64,000 nt of DNA. Source: an uncultured bacterium. Its GTDB lineage: Bacteria; Cyanobacteriota; Vampirovibrionia; Gastranaerophilales; Gastranaerophilaceae. The DNA lies in NCBI GenBank assembly GCA_949282215.1, contig CASDPF010000006.1:1-64000 (forward strand). The letters are read 5' to 3'. The position numbers were made by a program, and so were the translations under genes. Below, piece by piece: positions 9,312-61,634 of this stretch. Under the pieces are notes generated by a model. The model was not told the DNA's origin and made no database searches. It saw only the letters and a program-made list of their open reading frames with translations. Every line of letters begins with the position of its first letter. The first letter of the stretch is position 1.

Positions 9312-10394
9312 CTAACTGTTCTCATTTTTTTGTTTATAAACAAAAGCTAAAATTTCTGCGACTGCAACATACATGTCTGATGGTATTATACCATCAATTG
9401 GCACAGAATTGTATAGTGCTCTTGCAACAGGTCTATTTTCTACTATTGGAACATTATTTTCCTTAGCTATTTCTCTTATTTGGAACGCAAGATAATCAAC
9501 ACCCTTTGCTACAACCATTGGTGCAGGTGCTTTGGTTTTATCATATTTAATTGCGACAGCATAATGAGTTGGGTTTGTTACAACTACATCCGCATTTGGT
9601 ACTGATGACATCATTCGCTGTCTTGCCATTTGCATTTGTATTGATTTTATTCTAGCTTTTATTTTTGGATCCCCTTCTGTGTCTTTATGTTCATCTTTTA
9701 TTTCTTGTTTTGTCATTTTTATTGATTTTTCGTATTCATAATCTTGATATTTTTTGTCTAAAAATCCTAGAATTAACATTGCAAGGCACATATTAATAAT
9801 CATATTTACTAAAATTGATACTATAATATTAATTGCAACAGGAATTTCTAAACCAACTAAACCTAATAAATCCCCTTTACGACTATTTATAGCCGAATAA
9901 CCACAAGCACCAACAACGATTAATTTCAAGATAGATTTTGCAAATTCTACCATTGAACGAGGTTCAAATGGATTAATCATTCTTTTTGCATTTTGTAACA
10001 TTCTTTGAGTAGACAAATTTTCTAAATTAAATTTAGCTTTCTCTAAGGCAAAAACATGTCCAACATCCATCCTAATTACTATAATTGAAAAAATTACCAA
10101 TAAAACCATAAACGGTAAAGTTATTATCCCTAAATATTTAAAGTATGGGAAAAAGATTCCCATAATATTATCTACATTTATTGGATTTGCACTAAGATTT
10201 GAAAAGCAATCTCTCATCATGCTTTGGATTTTTTCAATCATTCCCCTGGAAAATAAAGCAAGCAAAGCTACCCCTGCTACCATTACAAGGGCTGAATCCA
10301 TATCACGACTTTTGGAAACATTTCCTCGTTCCCTTTCTTTCGTTCGCCGTCGACTGGTGGCTTCTTCTGTTTTTTCTGCTGCGTCATTTCCCAT
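9312..10394 (-). CDS. flhB: Flagellar export switch protein FlhB
   Basis: This 360-residue protein controls substrate-specificity switching of flagellar export. It has four hydrophobic segments and a cytoplasmic domain containing the autocleavage motif NPTH (near residue 274, in VVTNPTHYAVAIKYDK), the hallmark of FlhB/YscU. The charged N-terminus (EKTEEATSRRRTKERERG) is typical. It lies 19 bp after fliR. The intact NPTH suggests a working switch. Confidence 0.96.
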   Translation of the reverse strand: MGNDAAEKTEEATSRRRTKERERGNVSKSRDMDSALVMVAGVALLALFSRGMIEKIQSMMRDCFSNLSANPINVDNIMGIFFPYFKYLGIITLPFMVLLVIFSIIVIRMDVGHVFALEKAKFNLENLSTQRMLQNAKRMINPFEPRSMVEFAKSILKLIVVGACGYSAINSRKGDLLGLVGLEIPVAINIIVSILVNMIINMCLAMLILGFLDKKYQDYEYEKSIKMTKQEIKDEHKDTEGDPKIKARIKSIQMQMARQRMMSSVPNADVVVTNPTHYAVAIKYDKTKAPAPMVVAKGVDYLAFQIREIAKENNVPIVENRPVARALYNSVPIDGIIPSDMYVAVAEILAFVYKQKNENS

Positions 10395-21350: not shown

Positions 21351-21902
21351 TCAAGAGTTTGTTATATTAAATAATTTCTGCTGTCCTATTGGCGAAAAAT
21401 CCGCCCATATAATTTGTTTTGGCAAAAAGTCCCTGCAAAAATATGCAGAATTAAAGTTAATTTTTTCTTTTTGCTGCTTCCCTTTGAACTGCATTCGCTT
21501 TTCAAATAAAAGTAATTGCAGCTCTATATTCCTGAATAATTGTGCCGGAGCGGAATCGTTGAGCCAACTTATATTCATTAACAAACAAAAAGGTTTGTTG
21601 AATTTTAGTGCACGCTCAAATATTTCTCTCTTTCCGGTAAACGGCGGATTACTGATTATAATATCCCAGTTTTTCGGTTCATATCTGTAAAAATCTTGTC
21701 CGTTCCATATATGAGAGTATTCGACATTGTAATCATTTTCCTGAAAAACTTTTACGAATTCCGATTCTTCCGTGTCAAAAGGACACCATATTATTTTATT
21801 TCTGAACGGTTCAAGGTATTTCAACAAAGGTTCGACCGCATATCTTTCAGTCCAACATTCGTCATTTTTACCTTTTGATGTCCATAAAAAATTATTTGCC
21901 CT
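21351..21902 (-). CDS. Phage DNA N6-adenine methyltransferase-like protein, AGG start
   Basis: This 183-residue protein has the NPPF motif (ISNPPFTGKRE) typical of amino-methyltransferases and the phage-family block IIWCPFDTEESEFV. There is no clear glycine-rich SAM motif I, so catalysis is uncertain. The only nearby start-like codon in frame besides a TTG at 21827 is AGG at 21900-21902, 8 nt after AAGGAG (21911-21916). Starting there gives the conserved N-terminus ANNFLWTSKGKNDECW, which TTG would cut off. No ATG, GTG or TTG precedes this block. It is one of eight AGG-start genes, and the only one in the early operon. Confidence 0.8.
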   Translation of the reverse strand, partial: RANNFLWTSKGKNDECWTERYAVEPLLKYLEPFRNKIIWCPFDTEESEFVKVFQENDYNVEYSHIWNGQDFYRYEPKNWDIIISNPPFTGKREIFERALKFNKPFCLLMNISWLNDSAPAQLFRNIELQLLLFEKRMQFKGKQQKEKINFNSAYFCRDFLPKQIIWADFSPIGQQKLFNITNS

Positions 21903-27455: not shown

Positions 27456-27530
27456 TGGTGGCAGGGGCAGGAATTGAACCTGCTATCTCTTGCTTAGGAG
27501 ACAAGTGAGTTACCGTTACTCTACCCTGCA
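27456..27530 (-). tRNA. Initiator-like tRNA with CCU anticodon (reads AGG)
   Basis: A complete 75-nt cloverleaf with an encoded CCA. D stem GAGT/ACTC, anticodon stem CTTGT/GCAAG with loop CTCCTAA (anticodon CCU at 27496-27498), T stem GCAGG/CCTGC, loop TTCAATT, discriminator A. The acceptor TGCAGGG pairs with CCCTGCC except at the first position, leaving U1 x C72. An unpaired 1:72 and an A11:U24 pair are known marks of bacterial initiator tRNAs; elongators have a paired 1:72 and normally Y11:R24. Acceptor and T arms also resemble initiator tRNA from memory. The three G:C pairs of the initiator anticodon stem are absent. Position 20 is U, not the A20 used for arginine identity in E. coli. It lies in the early operon between the 27629 gene and ssb. 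Which amino acid it carries is unknown. Confidence 0.9.
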
Positions 27531-32588: not shown

Positions 32589-32591
32589 AGG
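32575..32591 (+). promoter_or_regulatory. Shine-Dalgarno and AGG start, zinc-ribbon-like gene
   Basis: AGGAG (32575-32579), a 9-nt spacer, then AGG (32589-32591) followed by GAA TGT TGC. Confidence 0.7.
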
Positions 32592-32957
32592 GAATGTTGC
32601 GGAAAGTTTAATCCAAAAGATGTATATCAACTGACATCCGACGGTTATGCTGAAAGAATACTTGAAAGTGGTTTTTGTCCGCAGTGCGGAGCTTGGGTCG
32701 TTGAAATATGCAAGAGAAGTTACGACGGACACTGGAGCTACCAAAAAGCAAAAAGAAAAAAAGCCCTCAAGTTGTTTAATGATTACCAAAAAGACATAGT
32801 TGATAAAATGATTGCCGGAAAGATTAAATACGGTAATCGTTCAAATATGGGTTTTCGTTACGGTCTCAATACAGAAGTGAAGAACCGAAAAGGAGTTGTT
32901 GAAATCCGGCAATATGCGGTAGATTTCAACGGTACAAAAGAATTATTGATTCGTTGA
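32589..32957 (+). CDS. Zinc-ribbon-like phage protein, AGG start
   Basis: This 122-residue protein reads ECCGKFNPKDVYQLTSDGY after the AGG and contains CPQCGAW and further cysteines, suggesting a zinc-binding site at residues 3-45. The rest is basic and helical. There is no ATG in frame before 32772, which would cut off the whole cysteine region. AGG lies 9 nt after AGGAG. Family unknown. It is the first gene of the rightward late region; a transcription-related role is possible. Confidence 0.7.
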   Translation, partial: RECCGKFNPKDVYQLTSDGYAERILESGFCPQCGAWVVEICKRSYDGHWSYQKAKRKKALKLFNDYQKDIVDKMIAGKIKYGNRSNMGFRYGLNTEVKNRKGVVEIRQYAVDFNGTKELLIR

Positions 32958-38930: not shown

Positions 38931-38936
38931 TCTAGG
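38922..38936 (+). promoter_or_regulatory. Shine-Dalgarno and AGG start, tail tube gene
   Basis: GAGGA (38922-38926, inside the end of the previous gene), a 7-nt spacer, then AGG (38934-38936) followed by ACT ATC ACT. Confidence 0.8.
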
Positions 38937-39605
38937 ACTATCACTTTTATTGATTTATACAATGAAATGACTGGTCAGGCTTGGTCAATGTTTGACGGCG
39001 AAGTCGAAGCAATGGACGAATTTGAAAGCTCCGTTACGACTTCTATCCAAAAAGCATTGAACTCATTATGGTGTTCTTATAAATTTCCATTCAGAAATAA
39101 AACTATGAAGTTTAAAACAAGGAGTGGAGTTAATCAATATTCCACTCCGAATGGAAATATAGCACAAAAAATATTGAAAAATAAAAAGGTTTACGGTGTT
39201 AAAATCGGTAAAAACTACCTTGAATATGAGCCGGATTTTGAAACCTTAGAGGATGAAACCGGAACCCCCGAAAAATTCTATGTAAAAAATGATAAATTAT
39301 TTTTATATCCTACTCCCGACGATAGCTATGATGTCGAGATAGAATATTGGACAATTTTTGCGGCTTGTGATGAGGACGGAAATTCAAAAGCTACATTGGA
39401 AGTCGACACAGATTATATTGATATTGATGAGAAATACGAGAGTATTTTCAAGGCGGCATTATTGCCTTTATGTATGGTTTATGCAATCGCTTCTGATTCC
39501 GATGAAAACCATTCAGGGTATCAAAGGCAATACGAGGACGCATACAAAATTCTAGTTGAATTTACTCGTGGTATTGAAATTGACAAAAGAATTGGGTGGC
39601 GATAA
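38934..39605 (+). CDS. Tail tubular protein A / head-tail connector, AGG start
   Basis: This 223-residue protein reads TITFIDLYNEMTGQAWSMFD after the AGG, a normal start of podovirus tail tubular A-like adaptors. It has beta-rich segments (YGVKIGKNYLEYEPDFET, VEIEYW). The first ATG in frame is 11 codons further on and would remove a conserved-looking helix. There is no GTG, TTG or ATG upstream in frame after the previous stop at a useful distance. The SD GAGGA is 7 nt before AGG. The gene ends overlapping the next by one base (TAATG). Confidence 0.78.
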   Translation, partial: RTITFIDLYNEMTGQAWSMFDGEVEAMDEFESSVTTSIQKALNSLWCSYKFPFRNKTMKFKTRSGVNQYSTPNGNIAQKILKNKKVYGVKIGKNYLEYEPDFETLEDETGTPEKFYVKNDKLFLYPTPDDSYDVEIEYWTIFAACDEDGNSKATLEVDTDYIDIDEKYESIFKAALLPLCMVYAIASDSDENHSGYQRQYEDAYKILVEFTRGIEIDKRIGWR

Positions 39606-39973
39606 TGTTTATAGTTGATGAAAAAACCGGAGATATAACTCTGACGCAGGGTGATACTGGAGAATATGTTGTATCGGGATTGCCTATTGACCAAAATTAT
39701 ACTGTTTATTTAGCTATTCAAGACGCTAACAGAAACCCTGTCGGGGATGAGCTTGTCGCTACTGCCAATTTAAGAAGTAGCGTTTCCCTGAAGTTTACAG
39801 CAGCCTTAACTGATTTATTAACAGTTAAAAAGAACAACGATACAGAAACCTACTATTTTGGCGTAAAACTTTGCGATAAATTAGGCAACGAAGATACGTT
39901 ATTACTGGCTAATAAGCAAATTGGAGACCAAAATACAATAACGGTATATCCGAAGAAAGTTGAAGGTATCTAA
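39605..39973 (+). CDS. Beta-rich virion protein
   Basis: This 122-residue protein (FIVDEKTGDITLTQGDTGEY...) is beta-rich with an Ig-like or collar-type pattern. It starts in TAATG overlap with the tail tube gene. The end overlaps the AGG of the next gene in TAAGG. It may be a tail or fibre-attachment protein. Confidence 0.65.
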   Translation: MFIVDEKTGDITLTQGDTGEYVVSGLPIDQNYTVYLAIQDANRNPVGDELVATANLRSSVSLKFTAALTDLLTVKKNNDTETYYFGVKLCDKLGNEDTLLLANKQIGDQNTITVYPKKVEGI

Positions 39974-39975
39974 GG
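39962..39975 (+). promoter_or_regulatory. Shine-Dalgarno and AGG start in TAAGG overlap, tail fibre-like gene
   Basis: GAAGG (39962-39966), a 6-nt spacer and AGG (39973-39975), whose A is the last base of the upstream TAA stop. This mirrors the usual TAATG coupling. Confidence 0.8.
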
Positions 39976-41079
39976 GTTGATGTTTCAAGTAAAAATAATA
40001 ATATAAGAGTTTCTGTATCATCAAGAAACAATATTAATGCTGTCGAGACATCAAACAGCATGGCTGAATATTGGGCAGATATTGCCGAACAATGGGCAAC
40101 ATCTGATAATATGGTTGAAAATACCGACTATTCGGCAAAGTATTATGCACAAAAAGCCGAAGATAATGCCGAAACATCTGATAGTTTGTTACAACAAACA
40201 AAAAACGCAGCAGAAAAGGCACTTGATGATATTTCTCAAAACGCTCAATCTTCGTTAAGTGAAATGTTGGAAACAAAGAATAGTTATGTAGCAACTATTC
40301 AGGAAACAGCAGAAACAGCAGCCGAAAGTATTGAAACACAAACTGAAACAGCAATAACATCTATAAAAACTGAAGGAGCTACACAAAGAGCAGCATTGCA
40401 AGCAGATGTTGCAACAGCACAGCAGGCAGCAGAAGAAGCAGCAGACAGTGCGGCGGAAGCATTAACGAGTGAACAAAATGCGGCTTCATCCGCAAGTCAG
40501 GCATTATCGAGTAAAAACGCTGCAAAAACCAGTGAAAACAATGCAAAAACTTCTGAAAACAATGCGAAAACCTCTGAAACAAATGCGTTAAATTCCGCAA
40601 ATACTGCAACAAGTAAAGCTACGGTTGCAACAACACAGGCGGGAATAGCAACGACGCAGGCAGGAATAGCAACAACAAAAGCGGGAGAAGCTGCGGACAG
40701 TGCAACCGCAGCAAGCCAATCAGCAGCAACAGCACAGCAGGCAGCAGAAGAAGCCACTAAGGGAGTTCAGCCCGCAACGACAACATCTCTTGGCGGAGTT
40801 ATAGTAGGTGAAAATTTATCAGTCGAAACTGACGGAACTATTAAAGCTGATGTCGGCATTGACGATATTCCTACAAATGTGTCGGAATTAGTAAATGATA
40901 AAAATTACTTATCATCTAATGACACAATAAAAGTTCAAGAAATTGAACAAGACGAGTATAATAATTTGGCAGTTAAAGATCCAAATGTTTTATATATTAT
41001 TTGTACTCAATTTTTGATTTGGGGGACTGCTTCTTGGGGTGTAGGAACGTGGGGACTGCAAGATGCCGAGACTAATTAG
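39973..41079 (+). CDS. Tail fibre-like coiled-coil protein, AGG start
   Basis: This 368-residue protein reads VDVSSKNNNIRVSVSSRNN after AGG. It then has a long Ala-rich coiled coil (about 70-260, many QQAAEEAADSA-type repeats), a beta region (TTTSLGGVIVGENLSVETDG), and ends with a Trp/Gly motif FLIWGTASWGVGTWG. This is the layout of a trimeric short tail fibre or spike stalk. The next ATG lies 29 codons later, inside the conserved N-terminal attachment region (AEYWADIAEQWATS). AGG overlaps the upstream stop. Confidence 0.78.
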   Translation, partial: RVDVSSKNNNIRVSVSSRNNINAVETSNSMAEYWADIAEQWATSDNMVENTDYSAKYYAQKAEDNAETSDSLLQQTKNAAEKALDDISQNAQSSLSEMLETKNSYVATIQETAETAAESIETQTETAITSIKTEGATQRAALQADVATAQQAAEEAADSAAEALTSEQNAASSASQALSSKNAAKTSENNAKTSENNAKTSETNALNSANTATSKATVATTQAGIATTQAGIATTKAGEAADSATAASQSAATAQQAAEEATKGVQPATTTSLGGVIVGENLSVETDGTIKADVGIDDIPTNVSELVNDKNYLSSNDTIKVQEIEQDEYNNLAVKDPNVLYIICTQFLIWGTASWGVGTWGLQDAETN

Positions 41080-45522: not shown

Positions 45523-48500
45523 ATGGGATTATTTGACGAAATAGATAACGAAGTTTTGAGTGGGCAAACGCCGATAAATAATGCAAATACAAATAATACA
45601 GACTCGCCAAAAGGATTATTTGACGATATAGACAATCAGGTATTAACAGAAGAACAACAACCAAAACCCACTTTTGCAGATTCACATCCTTTTATAGCTT
45701 CTGTCCCCGAAGCAGGTAAGCAATTTGGCGTTAGAGCCGTAAAATCTTTTCCTGAATTTGCAAAAGGTTTAAATGATTTAGTTGCATTGGCGGGGGATAA
45801 AACACATCTTCAGGGATTATCTGATTTTGGACGTTCAAATGCTGAATTTTGGCAGCAGCAATCTGATAAAATTCAAATAGACCCGAAATATCAAGGTCTG
45901 CAAGGCTTAAAAAGTAAAGAAACATTGCTGCCTACGGTTTTTGGTTCAGTCGGAGACCAGTTTACGAATTTATTAACTGCTGCCGGAGGCGGTGCTGGCG
46001 GTGCAAAACTTGCCGCACAAGCAGGGTTAAAAGGTCTTGCAAAGGCGGGGGTTATCACAGCCGGAACATCTGTACCGAATTTAGCACAGGAAGGCTCATA
46101 TCTTGATAAAATAGACGCTTTTCAAGCTATTAATGGCAGAATGCCGACACAGGAAGAATTGGCACAAATCCAAAATGTAGCTATTGGAGAAAAAGCGGTA
46201 AATACAGCCCTTGAAACCGTATCTGACCGTTTATTATTCGGAAAGATATTCCCTGAAGGAGCGGTTACAAAAGGTGTAAAAGGTGTTTTGAAGAACGCCG
46301 GACAACAGGCACTAACAGAAGCCGGAACAGAAGGAATGCAAGAAAGTGTTTCTATCGGTGCGGAGAAATTATTAGGCTTGAATCAAGGTGATAATGCGTC
46401 AAGATTGCTAGACGCTATGGCTATAGGTGGCGTTACAGGCGGCGTAATAGGCGGCGGAAGTAACCTTGTTGCACGACCTTATAATACTCAATTTGCAGAA
46501 AATCAAAATAATAATGTTAATCCGGTCGAAGCTGTAAAAAATGTATCTGCACAAATTGTAAATAACGGAAAAGTTCTTTATGATTCGGCAGCAGATAGTT
46601 TCAATAATGTTGTAAATAATGTAAATAATGCGGTTAATCAGCCGAGTTCTTTTGATGTGCTTATGCAGCTTTCCCGTGAAGGAAATTTGCACAATAGACC
46701 TGCTGAATTAGCCCCGAATATTGCCGAAAAAGCTAAAGTTAAAAAGGCAAGAAAAGCCGTTAAGTCCCCTGAAACAATAAGTAATCAGTCAGAAAATACA
46801 AATACCGAAATTATGCCAGTCGAAAACGTACAAAATGCGGTAAGTGAAACTCAAAATCTGACGCCGGAAATCGCAAATAAAGAAAAAGTTTCAAAGACAA
46901 AAGCTAAACAGCGTGAAAAAGCTGCCGCAAAAGAAAGAGCAATCGCAAAAATTAAGGAAATAGCACCTAATATTACAGCAAAAAAAGAAGAACTCACTAA
47001 CGCACAAAAAGATGTCCAATTATCTAGATTAAAAAAAGAAGTCGGTATTGGCGGTATTCTGAGGGATGATGAAGGCAGTGTCTATGAAGTGTTAGACCAA
47101 AACGGCTACATGCGAAATGTTGATACGGGCGAAGTGTCTATTGGTGATGTAAAAAGAAGTTATGAAAAATATGTCCACGATAATAATGAATTACTGAAAG
47201 TTCAGCCTTTTAATTATGACGAGAATGCAAAAGGCGATACAAACAGGGATAACTATGTATTTTCAAAACAGGAAGCTGTTGACGCTTATAATAATTATAT
47301 TCAGAAGCCTACAGAAGCTAACCGAGAAATTTACCAAGATACTGTCGGCAGATTACACGAAGAATATCAACAAATTGAACCGGAATTAAAGAATACGAAA
47401 CCTCAAAACACGGTAAAAGTTCCGGCAAAATTACAAGAATTAGCTCCGAAAACTGTAGAAAAATTACAAAAAACAAATAGTCCAAAACAGAATAATGAAG
47501 TCAATAATAAAAATTTCAGAAAAATAAATGATGAGCATACGGCAAGAATTATGCAAGTATATAACAAATACACTCAACAAGAAATTCTTGCGGGTAAAGC
47601 TAATAGCGAGATAGAAGCTATCAATAAAGAATTTGAACCGTTGGAAAAAGTAGCGTTAGCCCCGAATATTACTGAAAAAGCTGCGAACAAGAAGGCTAAA
47701 AAATACAAAGCCCCGTCTAAAGAAATCCCTGAAGGAACGAGTAAAAAGGGTGATGTAGCTTGGTATTTGAACAAAGATGATAAAAAGCCTAAATTTTATA
47801 GCACAATGGCAGAATCAAATGAGATAGGTTTATTTAAAGCTGAATCGAATTCTTATGAAGAATTGTTGAGCAAGCTACCTTATGCACCGACATCAAGAGC
47901 AATAGTTGAATACTATCAGAAAGCCGGTGTTCCGTTTAGCGAATTTAATCCTGAATATAATGGGAATATACCTGAAACAACTAATAAAGGGGGTGTTTTA
48001 AATGGACATGTCACTGAGACTGTTAATGCAGACGGACGCCGAGTATCAGAGGAAAAAGAAACAGCAGGAGAGGAAAGCAGCGGAGTATCACAAGAAGAAC
48101 CCGCAAATGAAAGAACTTCTGATCAGGTCGGACGAGGAGACGACGTATCTGATGTCGGACGAGGAATAAGCCAAAAAGATAAAGAAATCATTGAGAAAGA
48201 GTACAAAAATCAACATGAGTTAAACAAAGCTATCGAGGATTATATAAACAATGGCGAATATAAAAAATATGCCGGTTCTGTTCGTATGCCGCAAGAAGTG
48301 AAAGATTGGCTCAAAAAATATTCCGGAGCAGGCGGGCTTGAAAAACAAGGGGCAGCAGGTAAAGGTTTGTTGTCTGAATACTATACCCCCGCAAATATTG
48401 TCAAGAAGATGTGGGATATAACTTCTCAATATGTTGATACAAACGGTGCTAAAGTGTTAGAACCGTCTGTTGGCGTGGGAAGATTTATTGAATATGCTCC

Positions 48501-51500
48501 GGAGAATACTTCCTTTGACGCTGTTGAAATGAATCCGGTTAGTGCAAGGATTACCAAAATCTTGTACCCTGATACAAATGTTGAAACTGGAGAATTCCAA
48601 GAAAGATTTATCAATAAAGAAAACAATACTCCGGTGAAAAACGTAGAAGGTAAATATGATATTGTAATCGGCAATCCACCATACGGACAGTACAGCGGAA
48701 GATATAAAGGAATGGGAGAAGGTAAAAAATTCTCACGACTTGAAGCGTATTTTATAAATAGAGGGCTTGATAGTCTAAAAGAAAACGGTGTTATGACCTT
48801 CATTGTCCCGAGTTCATTCCTTGACGGAGCAATCACCGCCGGAAAACAGGAAATTGGCAAAAAGTGTGAATTACTTGACGCTTATAGATTACCTGAAAAT
48901 ACGTTTAATACAACTTCCATAGGTACTGATATTGTGGTTTTAAGAAAAACCTCAAGCGGGAAAGAAACAAACATCAATCTTGGAAAATGGTTTGAAGCTC
49001 ATCCCGAAAAGATACTTGGAACAGTGGAGCAGAGAAAAAGCCGATTCGGCGGGAAAATGGAAAATTATGTCAAGGGTGATAAAAATGCCGTTGATTCTAT
49101 TGACACGTCTAAAAAATCTATTAAAAAAACTGAACTATCCGAAAATACCGGAGAGTTGAAGGGTTCTGTTGAAAAAACAGTTAAAAAGCATTCAACTGTC
49201 AAGAAAAACTTGACAACTGAAAAAGTCGGAAATACTGAATACAAAGAGTATGTTCCTAAAAATACCGTACCTGATGAAGATTTGCAATTATTCAATGATA
49301 CCCGTGTTGACGGGACATTGCCGAAAAGCAAATATTCTCCGAATGAAAAAGTTAATATGTATGACGGTGAATTGTACAATGATTTTAATTATCTTCAGGG
49401 CGATATTTACGAAAAATTGGACGCACTTGAACACGAAAATATTTCAGAAAACCAAAAGGAGATACAGCGTAAAAAATTAGAGAAGGTTCTTCCTAAGCCG
49501 AAAGAAGTTAAACAGATTCAATTCAATCCGACTTCTGATTTTATAAGAGAGCTTGTTATGGGGCAAGAGGAAACTACCGAATATGATTATTCTTCCAGAC
49601 AAGAAAGAAAGGTTACAAGACCTGTAACGCTTGATAAAAAATACTTGCAACATGTAGAACATTTGACAAATTCTGAGAGGGACGGCGTATCTACTTGGGA
49701 TATTCGGTCATTTATCAATGGTAATAAAATCAGAATAGATTATCATTATTCAAGCTATAGTTTGTCTAAAGCTGAAATGGAAAAAGAACGCAACATGCAA
49801 AAAGCGGCTTATTTGACAAAGCTGAAAAATACTGTAGATAAAACATTTAATGATTTTGTTCAAAATGAATTAACCAAAGAAGAACAAAAGAAATTGTCTG
49901 ACGCTTGGAACAGAAATTTCAATGCCGTCTATAACCCTGACTACGAACAAATGCCTTTGCTTATAAAAGAGCTCAACTCTGAATTTTATGGCAAACCGCT
50001 TGAGCTCCAAAATGTTCAGATAGAAGGTATTAATTTCTTGACCAATAAAGGGGTTGGGTTGCTCGGTTTTGAAGTTGGTACAGGGAAAACCTTATCAGGT
50101 ATTATAGCAACTGTCCGCAATATGCAAAGCGGAAGATGTAAACGTCCTTTAATCTTAGTGCCTAAACAAGTGAAAAATAACTGGATTAGAGAAATTAAAC
50201 AGTCTTTCCCGAATATGCCTGTCAATGATGTCGATAATATGAGCAAATTTTCGGGCGAAATCCCTGAAAATTCTCTCACAGTCGCAACCTACGAAGCACT
50301 AGGCAATATTTGGTATGGCGATCGTGCTGCCGTTGATTTGATACACGATATATATTCAGTATCAAATGATTTTAATCGTGATAGTACAGAACGTGGAAAA
50401 GAAAAGGCGAAAGAACGTGCAGGACAGATATTAGGTTTAGCCGAAAAGGGAAATAAAAAACAGTTCAGCATTCAAGATTTAGGCTTTGACCATATAACAG
50501 TTGACGAAGCACATAATTTCAAAAATTTATTTGCAGACGCAAAGGCAGACGGACAAGAAGGCAATACCTACGTTAATATCACAGGCGGTAGCACTTCTAC
50601 CCGTGCGGCACGCCTTTTCTTGCTCGCTCAATACATTTTGAATAATAACAATAATCGAAATGTATTTATGTTGACCGCAACTCCGTTTAACAATAGCCCG
50701 ATTGAAGTATTTAATATGATGTCTTTCATTGGCAAAGATAAACTTGATAAAATGGGCTTATATAATGTTTATCAGTTTATGGAAAACTATGCTGATATAA
50801 GCTCTGATTGGATAGTAAATAGCAGAAACGAAGTCGAATATAAACAAATAGTGACAGGGTTCAAAAATGCAGGTTCTTTAAGAGAATTGATTAAATCAGT
50901 AATGCTTATAAGAAGTGCAGAGGACGCAGGTATTAAAAGACCTGAAAAATATACTAGACGTGTTGTGCTTGAACCTAGCCAATCTCAATTAGATTTAATT
51001 GCAAAAGCTGAGCAAGACGCAGTTTCGGGTAATAAAAATGACGGAGCAGTATTAAAAGCCATAAATCAGTCAAGGAAAGCTACTTTGTCTCCTGATATTG
51101 CAGCAGATAATTTTGACGTTTCCCCTGAAGATTTAATTAAAAATTCGCCAAAATTAGAGTATATTGCAAAAGCAGTTGCGTCTATGAAGAAAAAAGACCC
51201 GAAAACTTCACAGTTAATATATATGCCTTTAGGGGTAAAATATTTACCGAAAATTAAGCAATATTTTGTTAATAAAGGAATTTTTAAAGCTGATGAAGTA
51301 GCGATTATTGATTCCGGCGTATCAGACGATAAAATTTCACAAATAACGGACTCCTTCAATGACGTTGACGGTAAAGTAAAACTTATCATTGGAACAAATA
51401 AAATAAAAGAGGGTATGAATTTAAACAAAAATTCGAGCGTTCTTTATGTTCCTTATATGGACTGGAATCCGACAGACTTTATGCAGATTGTCGGCAGAAT

Positions 51501-54500
51501 TTGGCGTAGAGGTAACAGATACTCAAAAATAAGGGTTGTTGTTCCTTTGCTCAAAAATTCTTCTGATTCTTTTATGTTCCAAAAGTTAAACGAAAAAACT
51601 GACCGTATTAATAACATTATGGATGAAAGCAGAGAATATATAGATACATCCGAACTCAATACAGCAGAAGAAAAAATTAATATGATTTCTAATCCTGACA
51701 AAAAGGTTAGAATGTTCATAAAAGTTGAACAGCAAAAACTCGAAGCTCAAGTTAAAGAACTTCAGGGACGGCTTGAAACGGCAAATTCTTATAAGAATAG
51801 TCTTGAATCTGACGAAAGAATACTAAAAAATACTCAAGAAAGATTTAATAATCTAAAAAAAGAAATCAAAGAGCTAGATCCTGAAAAAAATAAATGGGAT
51901 TATGAATATAAAACCGACAATATGAACAGATACAAACGTGATATTGCCGCTTATACGGCTTCTTTAAAAAGAACAAAAGAAAAAATTAAACGTTTGGAGT
52001 TAGATTTTGAGGGTAAAGATTCGGAAGATGTTATAAATTCTGAAATACAGAAGATTCAGGAAAATATAAACCAGTTAGAAGAATACGGTAAAAAGAAACT
52101 CGTTGAATATCAAAAAGAATATGAAAGTGAACGTTTGAACAGTAAAACTGTATCGGACTTAATAAAAGAGTTTGAGAGAGATACTGAAACCTTGTACGAA
52201 GGCGGTTCGGAATCTTTTGAAATGCCTATAATAACAAACATAGTCAATAATTATAAAGATTTTACCGCTTTCAATGATAGTATCAAAAATGGTAAATCAA
52301 TAAAAGAATTATGCAAAACAGAGCCACTATTTATGGAGCTTAAAGATGAGCTTTCTGATGTCTCTGATTATATTGTTACGGCTATGCCGCAACGTCTACA
52401 GCGTAAAGGCGTTTTTGGCAAACATTACGGAAGCCAAAAACTTATACATCTTAATATGGCTGCAATAGGTGATAATGTAGAAGTTTTTACAAGAACGCTT
52501 ATGCACGAAATTCAGCACGCAAAACAAGAGAGCAGATATAGAGAATTGCTTTCAAAAGGTAAAAATTTTACAGAAAAAGAAAAAAGTTTTATAAAATCTT
52601 TTCAGGAATGCAAAAGAGTAAACAGAGAAAAACAAAATTTTTACAATAAACACAGAAAATTTCTTGATGATATAATGAAGGGGCTCAACGGATTAAATGT
52701 TGAGCAAAAACAAAATTTTATCAATAATTTATCTCCTAAAGAACGAGATATTGTTGATAAATATTATGAGTTATACGAAAATTATAAAAATGCTGCATTT
52801 GAGGTAGAAGCAAGAAAGGCAGGAAAATCTTATGCGGAAGAAATCAGAAGGCTTAACAGTGGAAAAACTGACAGAATTACAGGAATACGCAGAGAGTGGG
52901 CAGTTCGAGCAGGATCACATGGTGGTTCTACCGAAGGACAAAGACGGAGAAGTTATCCACTTGGACGATATGACGCCGGAGCAAGCGAAGATGTTGGGAT
53001 TGGATTAAGCGGTTTAAGGAGGCAGGCAGAACAACAGAATATCGCCGATAAAGCCGAAAAAGCAACCGAAGAATTGCTTGATTATAACAATATCGATGAA
53101 ATATTGCCAAAAGTAAAAAATTCTAGATTTACTATATTAAAAAAGGTTTTTACTCCAATCTCCACAAGATTAGAGGAAATTAATCCAAAATTAAAATATG
53201 CTATACGTAAATTTGAGTATGATTTTACTCAAACTGAAAATAAATACGCAGCAGCAATTAAACCATTTATTGAAAAATTAGATAAAATGCCCGTAGCTGA
53301 TTATGCAAAGTACGATTTAGCGTTAAAAAATGGTAAAACTGATATTGTAAATGCGTTAAATGAAAAATACGGGATTAAATCAGAATATAAAGCAGTAAGA
53401 AATTTACTCGACAAAATTAGACAAGAAGCCCTTGATACTGATTTAGAAGTAGGAATGATTGAAGATTATTTTCCAAGAAAAGTTATCAATCCTGCTGCTA
53501 TCATAGAACACTATTCAAAGAGCTCCTTTATAAGAAAATATTTGCGTGAAATTGACCCATATAACACGTTATCTGACGAGGAAAAGCTCGCTAAGATTAA
53601 TAGTGCGTTGAGAGGTACGAATCAGGCAATAAAAACTACATCTTCTTTTACCAAAGGACGTAAAATTTCCAGTATAACAAAAGACCTTAATCGATATTAT
53701 AAAGATAGTCGCTCTGCATTGGTAGATTATATTACCAATATGAATAATGCTATACAGGTCAGAAAATTTTTTGGTAAGGGTGATAATCTTGACGAATCTA
53801 TCGGAAGCTACACAAAAAATTTACTTGATAACGGATTGATTAGTCCTGCCGAAGAAACAGAACTGAAAGAAATTTTAAAATCTCGTTTCACACAGCATGG
53901 TGTAAGCGGAATTGTATCTGACCTGAAAAATATCGGATATGTTAGCACTATGGGAAACCCGTTCAGTGCAATTACTCAAATCGGAGACTTAGCATTTACT
54001 CTTTATAGAAATGGAGTTTGGAATAGTTTTCTCGGGTTAAAACAAACCGTTTCAAGAAACAATAATATAACAAAAGAGGATTTGGGGATTTCTAAGATTG
54101 CACAGGAATTTGAATCCGATAGCAAAACAGCTAAGTTAGTTGATAAAACCTTTAAATTTGTAGGCTTGGATTATATAGATAGGCTTGGTAAAGAAACTTA
54201 TATAAATGCTTCTTATCAAAGGCTGAAACAGCAAGCTGATAAAGCTATCTTTGACGGGAAGGTGCAGAAAAAATCAAAATTTTACAACGAGTTGCACGAT
54301 ATTTTTGGCAAGGATACAACAAAAGTAATCAAAGATCTGTCAAGCGGCAGAATATCAGAAAATGTGAAATATTTATTATTTTGTGACATATCAGATTTTC
54401 AACCTATTAGTTTGTCAGAAATGCCGCAAGTGTACTTGACGTCAGGTAATGGCAGGATTGCTTATATGTTGAAAACTTATAGCATAAAATTAGTTGATGT

Positions 54501-55236: not shown

Positions 55237-55484
55237 TATTAGCAGCAATACAGGCATTTTTTGAAGCTCTTAAAAGCGGTTTTTCTTATGCAGAAACAGC
55301 AAAAGAAAATCAATGCGAAACAGAAGTTTTGAAAGAAAAAAGACATCAAGAGAAGCAAAATGATAAACAGGAAGATTTACTTATTGATATGGCAAAATTA
55401 CTTTTGAAGTATCAGGGGGTAATGACCAAGACCGACAGAATAAGGGTAAATGTTTATACAAAAAGAATTAAGGGGGTAAATTAG
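55233..55484 (+). CDS. Small late protein
   Basis: This 83-residue protein has a helical, partly hydrophobic N-terminus (ILAAIQAFFEALKSGFSYAE) and a charged remainder with many Lys/Glu. It overlaps the giant gene by 4 bp, and its TAG stop overlaps the next AGG start (TAGG). A lysis-cassette role is possible from position only. Confidence 0.65.
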   Translation: MILAAIQAFFEALKSGFSYAETAKENQCETEVLKEKRHQEKQNDKQEDLLIDMAKLLLKYQGVMTKTDRIRVNVYTKRIKGVN

Positions 55485-55485
55485 G
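55470..55485 (+). promoter_or_regulatory. Shine-Dalgarno and AGG start in TAGG overlap, small membrane gene
   Basis: AAGGGGG (55470-55476), a 6-nt spacer, AGG (55483-55485). Two bases of the upstream TAG stop are part of the AGG. Confidence 0.78.
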
Positions 55486-55758
55486 TCAGAGACATTCGTA
55501 GAATATGCACCTATTTTGGTTGTTGTTATAGTTTTTTTATTCAAAAATAGACTTTTTGTTACCCCCGAACAGTTAGAAAAAAGAAGTGCTGCTATTTTAA
55601 AAGAAGTTGAGGAGCGTTTTGTTACATTGTTGCAGTATTCAGAGTTTAAGGCTTTTGTATCAACTCGTTTTGATGAGGGGGCTAGGCGTTTTGACCACCT
55701 CGACAAAGGAATAGATGATATAAAAAATTGTTTAGTACATTTAGCAGAAAAGGAGTAA
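55483..55758 (+). CDS. Small membrane protein, holin/spanin-like, AGG start
   Basis: This 91-residue protein reads SETFVEYAPILVVVIVFLFK after AGG. It has one N-terminal membrane helix (about 8-24) and a long charged coiled coil (LEKRSAAILKEVEERF...). This matches a type III-like holin or an inner-membrane spanin. No ATG or GTG is available near; a TTG 11 codons on would cut into the membrane helix. AGG overlaps the upstream stop. Confidence 0.75.
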   Translation, partial: RSETFVEYAPILVVVIVFLFKNRLFVTPEQLEKRSAAILKEVEERFVTLLQYSEFKAFVSTRFDEGARRFDHLDKGIDDIKNCLVHLAEKE

Positions 55759-56596: not shown

Positions 56597-56926
56597 ATGA
56601 ATATTTTAAATTTTTTCAAAGATTTGTTTGATTTCAAATCAGTAGCTAAAAAGATTTTTACAAAAGAAAATTTTGAAGAAATCTGTAACTTTGCAAAAAA
56701 TCAAATAGTAATTTTTGTAGGTAAAAATGACCTGCTTGGCAAAGAAAAAAAAGAAAAGGTCGACAAAAAGGTTATTGCCTTCTTGCAAGAAAAATTGCAT
56801 TCCGATAACGGATTTGTGAAATTCATTATAAATCTGTTGATTGCGATAGTTCCTGCTATTACTCAATTTATTTACGACACATTAAAAGCTCGTGTTGACG
56901 GCTTAACAGTTGAGAAAGAGGTGTAA
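56597..56926 (+). CDS. Small protein with hydrophobic C-terminal segment
   Basis: This 109-residue protein has Lys-rich helices and a hydrophobic stretch FVKFIINLLIAIVPAITQFI (about 74-93) that could span a membrane. It may be a lysis or tail accessory protein. AAGGAGCG precedes ATG. It is not an Avd-type four-helix protein, as far as I can tell. Confidence 0.65.
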   Translation: MNILNFFKDLFDFKSVAKKIFTKENFEEICNFAKNQIVIFVGKNDLLGKEKKEKVDKKVIAFLQEKLHSDNGFVKFIINLLIAIVPAITQFIYDTLKARVDGLTVEKEV

Positions 56927-56931
56927 TTAGG
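56918..56931 (+). promoter_or_regulatory. Shine-Dalgarno and AGG start, DGR target gene
   Basis: GAGGTG (56918-56923), a 5-nt spacer, AGG (56929-56931) followed by AGC GGA ACA GTT. Confidence 0.8.
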
Positions 56932-58152
56932 AGCGGAACAGTTAATTCTTTAATTCAATTCGGTTATGGTGAAGTCGCCGACCCTGATAGTGTCAATCAA
57001 AACTTTGAAACATTGCGTCAGGCTATCAACTCCAATGTCCAAGATACATTAGAAATCAATACAGAAATATCAACCATTAACACAACGCTTGATTCTGTAT
57101 CTGAACAGGTTATGCCTGATTTGAACTTTACCAAAACTGACAATATGTTCATTGTGTCAAATGCAAAGAACTCAATCACTTTAAAAGCCGGCACAACTAT
57201 TAGACTTAATGTGTCTGAGGATGATGTCAGATACTTAGAAGTAAAAGAAGATACAACCTATAATATATTCAATATTATGGACACAGGTGCGTCCTCTTTG
57301 ACAGCGGGGACTGACTATTATTTATATGTTGTCGCTAAAGATGAAGTCGGCGTTGAGAGTGAAGTTATAAAGACAGTTGAATTGAAAGCGTCTTTAAATA
57401 GTACATATCCTACCGGATATAATTCTTCTAACTCTCGTAAAATTGGCGGTTTTCACACTCTTTGCATGGCGGTTACAGCTTCAAATGCTCCGGCTCTTGT
57501 TGATACGGATATTTGGGACGCTCATCCCGCTATAGGTTATAATGCCGGAGATATTATCCCGAATTCTGTATGGTGTCTTTCAAACCGTCCTCAATCAAGC
57601 CCTGAAGGTATGGTTTATGTTGATAAGATTGATAAATGGGTTGATATTTATTTGCAATCAGGTACAGGGCTTTCAACAGCTTCCGCATACGGGGCTACTG
57701 TAACAGACAATAGACAGCCTATAAATCATCAATGGGATCAACAGCTAAAAAATAAAAAATTAGCAACTGACAATGATTTCACAATATTCGCTGAGGGTTC
57801 AAACCAAAAGACAGCTATTTACGGTAGTGCTGCTCCGAACCCTAAAACAACAGGCGGGCATACAGATACAGCGGGTAAACGTATGATTTCCGGCTATTTT
57901 GTTGAGGAATGCTGCGGGTATTTATGGCAATGGCTTGATGAAATTGCACCAGTCGGCGGAAGCGGCTTTTCAAATTATGACGGTTCTGCTGCAAGAGGTC
58001 AATCCTATGGCGTCCCTTATGTGCTTAGTGCGGGCGGGGATTGGTCTTATTCTTCGTCGTGCGGGTCTCGGGCTCGTTCTGCGAACTATTCTCGGTCGCG
58101 TGTCTCTGCTTACTACGGCTCTCGTGGGGTGAGCCTACCGCTTAGAATATAG
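56929..58152 (+). CDS. DGR-diversified receptor-binding protein, AGG start
   Basis: This 407-residue tail protein reads SGTVNSLIQFGYGEVADPDS after AGG. It has a stalk-like N-terminal half and a C-type-lectin-like C-terminal domain (FAEGSNQKTAIYG, GGHTDTAGKRMISGYFVEE, CGYLWQWLDE). The last ~45 codons are the variable repeat (58021-58132), ending GVSLPLRI. The DGR would change Asn-codon-derived residues at the ligand surface. The first ATG downstream is 28 codons on (57013), past the conserved-looking start. It is the only DGR target seen. Confidence 0.88.
   Translation, partial: RSGTVNSLIQFGYGEVADPDSVNQNFETLRQAINSNVQDTLEINTEISTINTTLDSVSEQVMPDLNFTKTDNMFIVSNAKNSITLKAGTTIRLNVSEDDVRYLEVKEDTTYNIFNIMDTGASSLTAGTDYYLYVVAKDEVGVESEVIKTVELKASLNSTYPTGYNSSNSRKIGGFHTLCMAVTASNAPALVDTDIWDAHPAIGYNAGDIIPNSVWCLSNRPQSSPEGMVYVDKIDKWVDIYLQSGTGLSTASAYGATVTDNRQPINHQWDQQLKNKKLATDNDFTIFAEGSNQKTAIYGSAAPNPKTTGGHTDTAGKRMISGYFVEECCGYLWQWLDEIAPVGGSGFSNYDGSAARGQSYGVPYVLSAGGDWSYSSSCGSRARSANYSRSRVSAYYGSRGVSLPLRI
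58021..58132 (+). repeat. DGR variable repeat (VR)
   Basis: This 112-bp segment aligns without gaps to the TR at 58258-58369. Of 16 differences, 15 are at template A positions (changed to T, C or G) and one at a template G. It encodes the C-terminus of the target. Confidence 0.95.
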
Positions 58153-58369: not shown

Positions 58370-58497
58370 TACGTTATCCATAGCGGTAATGGCTGAACCC
58401 GTAACCTTGTCGAAATCCCGAAAGGGTGTGGCAAAATACAATGCGATAAGTGAGCCCCTTGTTAGTAGGGCTTCCGAAAGTGAGGGGTTTTTACTTT

Positions 58498-59808
58498 ATG
58501 GTTAAAAGACACGGTAATTTATATGGTAGATTATGTTCGTGGGATAACTTATTACTTGCTCATCAGAGAGCAGCAAGACATAAGAAAAAATATACTGAGG
58601 TTATGCAATTTGAAGATAATCTTGAAGAAAATCTGAAAGAATTGCAAAATGAATTAATTACCTGTACGTATCATACAGGAGAGTATCGACAAAAGATTAT
58701 TTATGAGCCAAAAGAAAGAACTATATATATTTTGCATTATAAACATAGGGTCGCTCAATGGGCTTTGATGAACATTGTAGAACCAATAATTGAGAAAATG
58801 TTTATAAAAGATACATATTCTTGTATCAAAAACAGAGGAATGCACAAGGCTTCATTAAGAACAACTCAATTTGTTAATTCTTGCAAATATTGTTTAAAAA
58901 TGGATATCCGAAAATTTTATCCTTCTGTAGACCAAGATATATTATATTCGCTTGTAGAACGAAAATTTAAAGATAAAAAATTATTATATTTATTCAAAGA
59001 TATAATATATTCCTATCCGGGCGGCAAAAATATGCCAATAGGAAACTTAGCAAGTCAAATACTCGGTAATTATTATATGGACAGGCTTGATAAGTTTGTA
59101 AAAGAGGTTTTGAAATGTAAATGTTATGTGAGATATTGCGATGATTTCTGTTTATTTTCAAACGATAAAGAGGAATTAAAAAACTTCAAATATCGCATAA
59201 CAGATTTTTTAGATAAAGAATTAAAATTAACTCTTAGCAAGTGTGATATATTTCCAGTTTCTCGTGGTGTAGATTTTATGGGATATAGACATTTCAGAGG
59301 TTACAATTTAATCAGAAAAAGCACCGCCAAAAGAGTAAAAAGACAGTTACCTACGATATATAAAAAAGGATTAAGCGGTGAATTATCAGTCGGTAGATTT
59401 AGATCTACAGTTGACTCAATTTTAGGGTGGATTGATTGGGCTGACAGTTATAATTTTATAAAAAGTACGAAAATATTACAGTATAGGAGCGAAGTTATGG
59501 CAAAATTTTCAGAAATTGCAACAGAAAATGACAAAAATTTAAGAAAACTAGAAGGCAATAGTGTAAAAATCGAAGATTGGCTCGATAAGCCAATTAAAAT
59601 TACAGGTTATCGCATAGAACCGTCAAAATTTAATGACAACAAAGGACGTCCAAAAAATAGAATCGGTTTTGAGTTCTATTCAGAAGGTACTCCACATGTT
59701 ATATTTACATCTTCAGGGAATCTGATTTATTTAATACAAAAATATTACACGAAAGAAGGACTGGAGTGTAAAATTGTAAAAAGAAACGGGCAATTATGCT
59801 TAGAATAA
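58498..59808 (+). CDS. DGR reverse transcriptase with fused C-terminal domain
   Basis: This 436-residue protein has group-II-intron-like RT motifs: KMDIRKFYPSVD, PIGNLASQILGNYYMD with the DGR-type SQ, the catalytic YCDD (RYCDDFCLF, about 214-222) and FMGYRHF. It makes A-mutagenised cDNA from TR for VR exchange. Residues about 334-436 (AKFSEIATENDK..., ITGYRIEPSKFND, FYSEGTPHVIFTSSGNLIYL) resemble a phage ssDNA-binding-like domain that is usually a separate gene. ATG59497 at that junction has AGGAG 8 nt upstream, so the domain may also be made alone. No Avd gene is adjacent. Confidence 0.93.
   Translation: MVKRHGNLYGRLCSWDNLLLAHQRAARHKKKYTEVMQFEDNLEENLKELQNELITCTYHTGEYRQKIIYEPKERTIYILHYKHRVAQWALMNIVEPIIEKMFIKDTYSCIKNRGMHKASLRTTQFVNSCKYCLKMDIRKFYPSVDQDILYSLVERKFKDKKLLYLFKDIIYSYPGGKNMPIGNLASQILGNYYMDRLDKFVKEVLKCKCYVRYCDDFCLFSNDKEELKNFKYRITDFLDKELKLTLSKCDIFPVSRGVDFMGYRHFRGYNLIRKSTAKRVKRQLPTIYKKGLSGELSVGRFRSTVDSILGWIDWADSYNFIKSTKILQYRSEVMAKFSEIATENDKNLRKLEGNSVKIEDWLDKPIKITGYRIEPSKFNDNKGRPKNRIGFEFYSEGTPHVIFTSSGNLIYLIQKYYTKEGLECKIVKRNGQLCLE
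59485..59499 (+). promoter_or_regulatory. Internal ribosome-binding site and start within the RT gene
   Basis: AGGAG (59485-59489), a 7-nt spacer and in-frame ATG (59497-59499) at residue 334, exactly where the extra C-terminal domain begins (MAKFSEIATEND). Confidence 0.55.
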
Positions 59809-59820
59809 TAAGCAAAAGGC

Positions 59821-59839
59821 AAAGGAGCGTGTAGGCAGG
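59821..59839 (+). promoter_or_regulatory. Shine-Dalgarno and AGG start, terminase large subunit
   Basis: AAAGGAG (59821-59827), a 9-nt spacer, AGG (59837-59839) followed by GAA TAC GAT TTA TTA. Confidence 0.82.
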
Positions 59840-61132
59840 GAATACGATTTATTAGACAAACAAAAAGAATTTATGGAAATCCCGCACAATAATGAGCTTG
59901 ATGTAGCTATTTATCAGGGTGGGTACGGAAGCGGAAAAACTTGGAGCGGAGCATTACTCGGGATTATGTTAGCTAGAAAATATCCCGGATGTAGAGGATT
60001 GGTGGGAGCGGCAACATTTACTCTTGTTGAACGAACTACACTCGTAAAATATTTTGAACATCTTGAAGCTCTCGGGTACGAATCAGGAAAACATTATAAA
60101 TACAACAAAACGAAACATTTATTACAGTTCAAAAACGGTTCTGAAATCTATTTTATGGATTTACAAGACCCTGAAAAGTTTAAATCAATGGACTTGCACT
60201 GGGCAGAAATCGAGGAAGCGTCGCAAGTCGGCGATAGTGTTATAAAAGGGTTACTCGGTCGTTTGAGAAATACATATAGACGTCCGTCTTGGAAAAACTT
60301 TCGATATAGACTTTTTGGTCACACGAACCCTCAACCTAATAAGGATTGGATTTATGAGCGTTTTGTCGAGAACAAAAAAGACGGCTATCGGCTTATAATT
60401 GCACCTACAACTAATAATATACACTTGCCGGAACATTTTGTTAAAGAACTTGAATCAGCCTATGACCCTGAATATTTTAGGATAAATGTTCTTGGAGAAT
60501 TTGGGGACTATAACAGCGGTTTGGTAGTTAAAGGTTTTACGGATGATAACCTAAAAACCTTGAAATACTGTCCCGAAGTACCATTACATTTGACTTGTGA
60601 TTTTAACGTTGACCCTATGATGTGGTGTATAGCACATAGAGACGACGAAAGCGTATATTTTATAGATGAGATTGTTGTCGAAAATGCAACAACAGAGGTC
60701 TGCATGAAGGAATTTATGCGGAGATACCCTAATAAAGAGCAAGAAATCATCATTAATGGCGACGCTTCAGGGGACAACAGAAGTACACAAAGCGAGTTCA
60801 CAAACTATGCAATTATGCGAAAGTTGTTAAGAGATAATGGATATAAAAATTTTAAGTTCCATTTGAGAGATTACAACCCGCCGATATTAAACAGAATTAC
60901 GGCTTTTAATGCACGTGTCAGAAGTGCAAACGGTCTTGTCAGATTGTTCGTTGATAAAACAAAATGCAAATATCTTAAAAAGAATATTTATAATCTGAAA
61001 TACAAAGAAGGTACTACAATCATCGATGCACCTACAATTAATCAGATTAAGCAAGATAGGGATAAAAAGTTTTTGCTACATATTTTCGACGCAGCAAGTT
61101 ATTTAGTAGAGTATTACTGGAGAATTAAATAG
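59837..61132 (+). CDS. terL: Terminase large subunit, AGG start
   Basis: This 431-residue packaging motor reads EYDLLDKQKEFMEIPHNNEL after AGG. It has Walker A GGYGSGKTW (about residues 36-44), the coupling/Walker B region FMDLQDPEKFKSMDLHWAEI, and a C-terminal RNase-H-type nuclease with LTCDFNVDP, IINGDASGD and HIFDAASY. Starting at the first ATG (59873) would remove the conserved N-terminal adenine-binding helix. AAAGGAG sits 9 nt before AGG. It is far from terS (26 kb), an unusual arrangement. Confidence 0.9.
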   Translation, partial: REYDLLDKQKEFMEIPHNNELDVAIYQGGYGSGKTWSGALLGIMLARKYPGCRGLVGAATFTLVERTTLVKYFEHLEALGYESGKHYKYNKTKHLLQFKNGSEIYFMDLQDPEKFKSMDLHWAEIEEASQVGDSVIKGLLGRLRNTYRRPSWKNFRYRLFGHTNPQPNKDWIYERFVENKKDGYRLIIAPTTNNIHLPEHFVKELESAYDPEYFRINVLGEFGDYNSGLVVKGFTDDNLKTLKYCPEVPLHLTCDFNVDPMMWCIAHRDDESVYFIDEIVVENATTEVCMKEFMRRYPNKEQEIIINGDASGDNRSTQSEFTNYAIMRKLLRDNGYKNFKFHLRDYNPPILNRITAFNARVRSANGLVRLFVDKTKCKYLKKNIYNLKYKEGTTIIDAPTINQIKQDRDKKFLLHIFDAASYLVEYYWRIK

Positions 61133-61148
61133 AAAGGAGTTCATCAGG
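61133..61148 (+). promoter_or_regulatory. Shine-Dalgarno and AGG start, amidase
   Basis: AAAGGAG (61133-61139), a 6-nt spacer, AGG (61146-61148) followed by AAA AGA ATT ATT. Confidence 0.85.
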
Positions 61149-61634
61149 AAAAGAATTATTGTACATTGGACAGCAGGAACAAATCAGCCAAATTCGCACG
61201 AATTTGATTGTTATCATTATTTAGTCAACGGAGACGGACTTGTTGTTGCGGGGAAACACAAACCCGAAGATAATGAGAATTGCAATGACGGAAATTACGC
61301 AGCACATACTGGCGGTGGTAATACAGGCTCTATTGGCGTTGCTTTGTGCGGCATGGCAGGGTTTGTTAATCGTCAAAATGTAGGTAAATATCCGTTGACA
61401 AAAGTACAGTGCGAAGCAGCATTCAAACTTATAGCTGAAATCGCCAAGAAATATAACCTAGATATTACCCCTCAGACCGTCATGACACATTATGAATTCG
61501 GTTTAAACAATCCAAAAACAACAAGTGCGGGGAAGATTGATATTGTCTATCTTCCGCCTTATCCTGACGTCATTCAAGCAGAGGTTGGCAATTATATCAG
61601 GAATAAAGCTCGTTGGTATAGAACTAAGATTTAA
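61146..61634 (+). CDS. N-acetylmuramoyl-L-alanine amidase endolysin, AGG start
   Basis: This 162-residue protein reads KRIIVHWTAGTNQPNSHEFD after AGG, the exact conserved start of T7-lysozyme/PGRP-type amidases (normally MKRIIVHWTAG or close). Zn ligands are visible: H in IVHWTAG and H in VMTHYEFG. It cleaves cell-wall amide bonds at lysis. The next ATG lies 66 codons on and would delete the first zinc ligand, so AGG is the only sensible start. It ends the phage late region and is followed by a terminator. Confidence 0.92.
   Translation, partial: RKRIIVHWTAGTNQPNSHEFDCYHYLVNGDGLVVAGKHKPEDNENCNDGNYAAHTGGGNTGSIGVALCGMAGFVNRQNVGKYPLTKVQCEAAFKLIAEIAKKYNLDITPQTVMTHYEFGLNNPKTTSAGKIDIVYLPPYPDVIQAEVGNYIRNKARWYRTKI

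Follow-up and report, generated by a model that had tools for sequence, protein, structure and literature searches.

In phages that recode stop codons, a tRNA gives a codon a meaning that is absent in the host. Bacterial non-AUG starts (GUG, UUG, AUU and GUC) follow a Shine-Dalgarno (SD) sequence and are read by the normal tRNA-fMet(CAU). This initiator is identified by the anticodon CAU reading AUG, a 1:72 position without a Watson-Crick pair, the formylation marks G2:C71 and C3:G70 together with A73, a purine 11:pyrimidine 24 pair, and three consecutive G:C pairs in the anticodon stem. Formylation is promoted by the 1:72 mismatch together with G2:C71, C3:G70 and A11:U24 (PMC7949028), and the mismatch further contributes to excluding the initiator from elongation (PMC8576571). 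The anticodon can be changed in the laboratory: engineered amber (CUA) initiators accept Gln and initiate at UAG (PMC8576571), in keeping with the statement in the initial annotation of this locus that changed-anticodon initiators start at matching codons.

The locus described here lies in a window of 64,000 nucleotides, the whole stretch of DNA that was analysed. The window, from a gut bacterium, contains a prophage, and a tRNA is located in its early operon, between the SSB gene and a RecT-side gene:

27456..27530, (-) strand: initiator-type tRNA, anticodon CCU, CCA encoded

The phage pair of tRNA and AGG starts follows the same idea as the engineered initiators, in that a changed anticodon accompanies starts at the matching codon, but those are laboratory constructs, whereas the phage pair appears natural, occurs in several lineages and is tied to virion/late genes. 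Unlike the bacterial non-AUG starts, AGG has a dedicated anticodon, and such matching was also found for ACG, ACA, ACU, CAG and CAA. In stop-codon recoding a stop is read as sense, whereas here a sense codon would gain a second meaning, start, by its SD context.

The prophage tRNA compared with initiator and arginine tRNAs

Both ARAGORN, which labels it tRNA-Arg(CCU), and Rfam RF00005 (60.1 bits) called a tRNA at this position with anticodon CCT. Direct reading gave TGCAGGG-TA-GAGT-AACGGTA-ACTC-A-CTTGT-CTCCTAA-GCAAG-AGATA-GCAGG-TTCAATT-CCTGC-CCCTGC-C-ACCA. The tRNA shares with bacterial tRNA-fMet an unpaired 1:72 (U1xC72), G2:C71, C3:G70, A73 and A11:U24. It differs in being phage-borne, in carrying CCU rather than CAU, in its AGG partner starts, and in its anticodon stem, where the pairs are U29:A41, G30:C40 and U31:G39 and G30:C40 is the only one of the three G:C pairs present. 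The CCU anticodon, the open 1:72 position, A11:U24 and the missing set of anticodon-stem G:C pairs had all been described in the initial annotation, and each was seen again here. The initiator criteria of three consecutive G:C pairs and of CAU reading AUG are not met. Because the anticodon is CCU, we take the tRNA as initiator-like in function, but as a variant and not a standard tRNA-fMet.

An elongator tRNA-Arg(CCU) would be expected to have a paired 1:72 in an ordinary elongator frame and the arginine identity element A20 with C35/U36. The unpaired 1:72 and A11:U24 do not meet the former. The latter is not met since position 20 is U, which confirms the misfit to arginine identity that had been pointed out earlier; in E. 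coli, recognition by ArgRS depends chiefly on A20 (PMC9976931). The host tRNA-Arg genes carry A in the D-loop pocket. We then built a covariance model from five CCU tRNAs of the phage lineage (window, G011, L106, L102 and L109), all of which adjoin RecT and have 1:72 unpaired. The host initiator scored 64.5 bits with this model, the top score among host tRNAs, compared to only 23.3 bits for the host tRNA-Arg(CCU). In plain identity the window tRNA is about level between the initiator (65%) and elongator tRNA-Met (66%), suggesting that the likeness rests on structural marks more than on identity. For most phage tRNAs tried, the initiator was the best or near-best plain-identity match.

AGG-start genes of the prophage and its relatives

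Eight ORFs of the prophage start with AGG, at 21902 on the (-) strand and at the first coordinate of the other seven:

21351..21902, (-) strand: ORF of 183 codons, taaggagaaatcaaa AGG GCA AAT AAT, no canonical in-frame start upstream
32589..32957, (+) strand: zinc-ribbon-like (CCGKF) ORF, taggagagagacaag AGG GAA TGT TGC
38934..39605, (+) strand: virion-module ORF, aatgaggaataatct AGG ACT ATC ACT
39973..41079, (+) strand: ORF, agttgaaggtatcta AGG GTT GAT GTT
55483..55758, (+) strand: ORF of 91 codons, ttaagggggtaaatt AGG TCA GAG ACA
56929..58152, (+) strand: large ORF read as DGR target protein, gaaagaggtgtaatt AGG AGC GGA, adjoining the reverse transcriptase gene
59837..61132, (+) strand: large terminase, aaaggagcgtgtaggc AGG GAA TAC GAT
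61146..61634, (+) strand: amidase/lysin-like ORF, agaaaggagttcatc AGG AAA AGA ATT

No in-frame ATG, GTG or TTG lies between the preceding stop and the AGG in any of the eight, and an SD-like stretch is found 4-10 nt upstream of each AGG; the eight AGG starts first proposed for this prophage therefore stand. Alignment with related phages revealed exchange between ATG and AGG. The aligned codon of the 38934 ORF is ATG in G002, G011 and G041, the region aligned with the start at 39973 reads ATG GTA AAT GTA in G011, and the homologues of the 55483 ORF in G002, G011 and G041 have ATG starts within about one codon. The amidase starts with AGG in the window and in G011, and with ATG in G002. AGG is retained at 32589 in the homologues from G011, G002, L102 and the G041 phage, and likewise at 56929 in G002, while no ATG-start homologue was available for comparison with the 21351..21902 ORF. 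For the terminase, 29 loci from the same bacterial family have ATG, GTG or TTG at or beside the aligned position, with the exception of G365 (AGG); among viral relatives, L035, L036 and L037 have AGG and the other close ones ATG.

Because simple listing of ORFs from stop to stop brought in many antisense ORFs and too much noise, homology-limited and SD-based tests were used. In the homology-limited test, SD-preceded AGG starts were flagged in the tRNA-bearing relatives and also in two fragments, G365 and L037; four tRNA-less relatives of ~35-44 kb yielded none. For L064/G365 and L037, whose terminase starts with AGG, no tRNA could be identified, but these sequences are fragmentary or incomplete. 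The RecT-syntenic tRNAs were located without any sequence pattern and all have a 1:72 mismatch; another CCU tRNA is present in the G041 phage.

Several further observations concern these relatives. L109 and G002 come from the same metagenome and, judging by the left end of the former and the right end of the latter, appear to be the two parts of a single phage, divided inside the repressor gene, in which case G002 would gain a tRNA. At the same RecT/SSB place, L103 has a tRNA-like sequence (9758-9831) with anticodon CCA and A1xC72. There was no case for UGG starts in L103, where RecT begins with an ordinary ATG and is frameshifted further on, and tRNA-Trp matches in L100 and L101 look unrelated. 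In the window, at 56914-58152 and 58450-59808, a reverse transcriptase lies beside a large ORF that resembles a diversity-generating retroelement target and starts with AGG. The late region of the prophage holds a 3237-codon ORF (45523-55236), and ORFs of ~3200-3300 codons occur at similar places in G002, G011 and G041. A second terminase, ~57% identical, is encoded in the same genome (G000:C4:71975-73252) and possibly marks a second prophage.

Anticodons and start codons in unrelated phages

Further CCU tRNAs were found in viral contigs with degenerate patterns. Because part of the acceptor stem was prescribed in the wider viral searches, and A72 and A73 as well in the last of them, these tRNA features carry some ascertainment; position 1 was left free. 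Every tailed-phage CCU tRNA in the alignment has G2:C71, C3:G70 and A73. Position 1:72, mostly C, A or G1xA72 in the unrelated phages, is unpaired in all except L154 (A1:U72). A11:U24 is present in about two thirds and U11:A24 in most of the others, G30:C40 is kept in nearly all as the only conserved one of the three initiator G:C pairs, and position 20 is U or C in most of the other phage CCU tRNAs. Several (L109, L142, L150, L200 and L214) have C33 instead of U33.

Several to many SD-preceded AGG starts were observed in G396, G397, G398 and G400, whose other genes mostly start with ATG. The AGG genes of the unrelated CCU-tRNA phages mostly encode virion proteins (portal, capsid, tape-measure and tail), and for CCU-tRNA tailed phages overall they are mainly virion, packaging and lysis genes. 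The tRNA of L057 was at one point taken as an ordinary phage tRNA-Arg, which was dropped since its 1:72 is unpaired and the portal ORF has an AGG start. We then counted the codons that follow an SD 5-mer within the first 30 codons and within codons 60-119 of the same ORFs. Among 61 codons in the tRNA(CCU) phages, only ATG (158 vs 5) and AGG (66 vs 2, p=1.5e-14) were enriched. The set holds several close relatives, so this p-value overstates independence and is not exact. The same test on tRNA-lacking controls gave 84 vs 3 for ATG and 4 vs 0 for AGG, the latter not significantly enriched, and a control phage with 17 elongator tRNAs had 1 SD-preceded AGG vs 13 ATG in the first 30 codons.

The association was also examined in a portal clade of 23 loci. 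All nine AGG loci with enough flank carry tRNA(CCU) upstream of the terminase (9/9; Fisher p=0.027), and the ATG loci L181 and L194 carry a tRNA(CAU) at the same place. L179 and L182 are exceptions with tRNA(CCU) yet an ATG portal. No tRNA of initiator-like type was found at the ATG portal locus L187, and ARAGORN found no tRNA in the distant portal relative AC844P1. An initiator-like tRNA(CAU) with A1xA72 is also present in Ochrobactrum phage POI1126 (KY417925; L216 20001-20075), where it is ~83% identical to a tailed-phage CCU tRNA and the structural genes checked start with ATG. The CAU tRNAs of POI1126, L181 and L194 are thus also phage-encoded and initiator-like, and in the portal clade they sit at the same locus, but the structural genes checked start with ATG, whereas the CCU version accompanies AGG starts.

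BLAST of the phage CCU tRNAs against annotated phages returned inoviruses, filamentous phages that have short genomes and tRNAs with other anticodons. The inovirus coat ORF has an SD ahead of it, and its first codon is the complement of the anticodon that the same phage encodes. This was observed in 15/15 of the first genomes: CGU-ACG (4), UGU-ACA (3), AGU-ACU (2) and CUG-CAG (6). Seven further genomes were picked by coat homology only, not by tRNA. The five with a tRNA all match (CUG-CAG, CGU-ACG twice, UUG-CAA and AGU-ACU), the AGU-ACU case being ambiguous owing to an in-frame ATG two codons upstream; in the two for which no tRNA was found, the coat start is ATG. In total 20/20 tRNA-bearing genomes match (one ambiguous), compared to 14 at most among shuffled pairs (20,000 shuffles), although the shuffle does not remove relatedness among genomes. 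The inovirus tRNAs mostly have a 1:72 mismatch, but several have U1:A72.

Proposed mechanism and alternative explanations

Collectively, we consider it very likely (probability roughly 0.88) that the phage encodes a variant initiator tRNA through which virion/late genes are initiated at a private codon. This rests on sequence evidence only, without expression, proteomic or biochemical data. The two-part system put forward in the initial annotation, an initiator-type tRNA(CCU) with AGG starts, is supported by the homologous ATG/AGG exchanges, by the recurrence of the same tRNA features in unrelated tailed phages, by the lack of SD-preceded AGG starts in the tRNA-lacking relatives, by the CAU tRNA at the same locus in ATG-portal relatives and by the inovirus matching; aminoacylation, formylation and translation are only inferred. 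The prophage would encode a bacterial initiator tRNA in which CCU replaces CAU. The retained marks (unpaired 1:72, G2:C71, C3:G70, A73 and, here, A11:U24) may allow formylation and keep the tRNA from elongation. Once charged and formylated, it would be put in the P site opposite AGG at normal SD distance. ATG genes would be independent of the tRNA, whereas the terminase, the amidase, virion genes, the DGR target and a few other AGG genes would depend on it. The concentration of AGG in virion/late genes and the position of the tRNA in the early operon suggest, as an inference, that the tRNA acts as a gate, confining virion/late proteins to productive infection. Initiation need not use Met: a mischarged tRNA would carry Met, whereas cognate charging would give the amino acid that corresponds to the anticodon, and the sequence does not settle between the two. 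Charging by ArgRS is disfavoured, in E. coli terms, by the lack of A20, which the window tRNA shares with most of the others.

The ARAGORN label would suit an ordinary phage elongator tRNA-Arg(CCU) serving rare AGG codons, with AGG starts that are unrelated or weakly read by the host initiator, and phages often carry tRNAs for rare codons. However, the phage is not enriched in the internal codon that such a tRNA would read (3.86 AGG per 1000 internal codons in prophage ORFs vs 3.82 in host ORFs of the window), and the host already has its own tRNA-Arg(CCU). Together with the unpaired 1:72 and the covariance scores, the lack of internal enrichment disfavours an elongator role, as does the missing A20. 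An elongator would also not account for AGG starts tracking the tRNA in several phage groups, or for the anticodon-start matching in inoviruses, and we regard this explanation as very improbable. We give equally little credence to a different mechanism, such as translational coupling, near-cognate or other starts, or AGG as part of the SD region. AGG is itself SD-like, many AGG genes overlap or abut the upstream gene so that coupling is possible, and the 38934 ORF has an in-frame ATG further downstream. Yet an SD-like stretch of its own precedes each AGG of the prophage, ATG stands on or beside the AGG position in homologues, and SD-preceded AGG is rare internally and not significantly enriched in the controls.

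The presence of initiator-type tRNA(CAU) in L181, L194 and POI1126 is compatible with a spare initiator-like tRNA, acting as decoy or replacement against tRNA-cutting host defences, with AGG starts as a by-product of tolerated mutation. Defences that cleave tRNAs exist, but a spare tRNA leaves unexplained both the match between anticodon and start in each inovirus genome, including those picked by coat homology only, and the concentration of AGG in virion/late genes; we hold it to be highly unlikely. Counted against the variant-initiator reading are the absence of two of the three anticodon-stem G:C pairs, the absence of A11:U24 in about a third of the CCU tRNAs and C33 in some of them. The ATG portals of L179 and L182, the lack of a tRNA for L064/G365 and L037, A1:U72 in L154 and U1:A72 in inoviruses also count against it.

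To our knowledge, this would be the first natural instance in which a start codon is reassigned and served by a dedicated initiator tRNA, and it is seen in many phages and with several codons. The literature searched contained neither a natural AGG start nor a phage initiator whose altered anticodon is matched to start codons, although preprints and most subscription journals were outside the search, so this absence is not proof of novelty. More broadly, we think it likely that start codons in phages form a freely reassignable private code in two viral realms. With anticodons CCU, CGU, UGU, AGU, CUG or UUG, virion genes (in inoviruses, the coat gene) would start with the complementary codon and possibly with a non-Met residue, and structural proteins would be made only with the phage's own tRNA. 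If so, a tRNA alone can redirect initiation, and the natural variants allow tests of the rules of initiator selection (1:72, G:C pairs, anticodon and first amino acid). Such a system would also point to a means of restricting virion proteins to productive infection, and to naturally occurring parts for orthogonal initiation. In such phages, gene callers would be predicted to overlook or shorten structural genes, and for an inovirus coat gene that starts with an unlisted codon, a missing or different annotated start is expected. In many of the inovirus records L171, L172 and L218-L230, the coat gene is unannotated or has another start.
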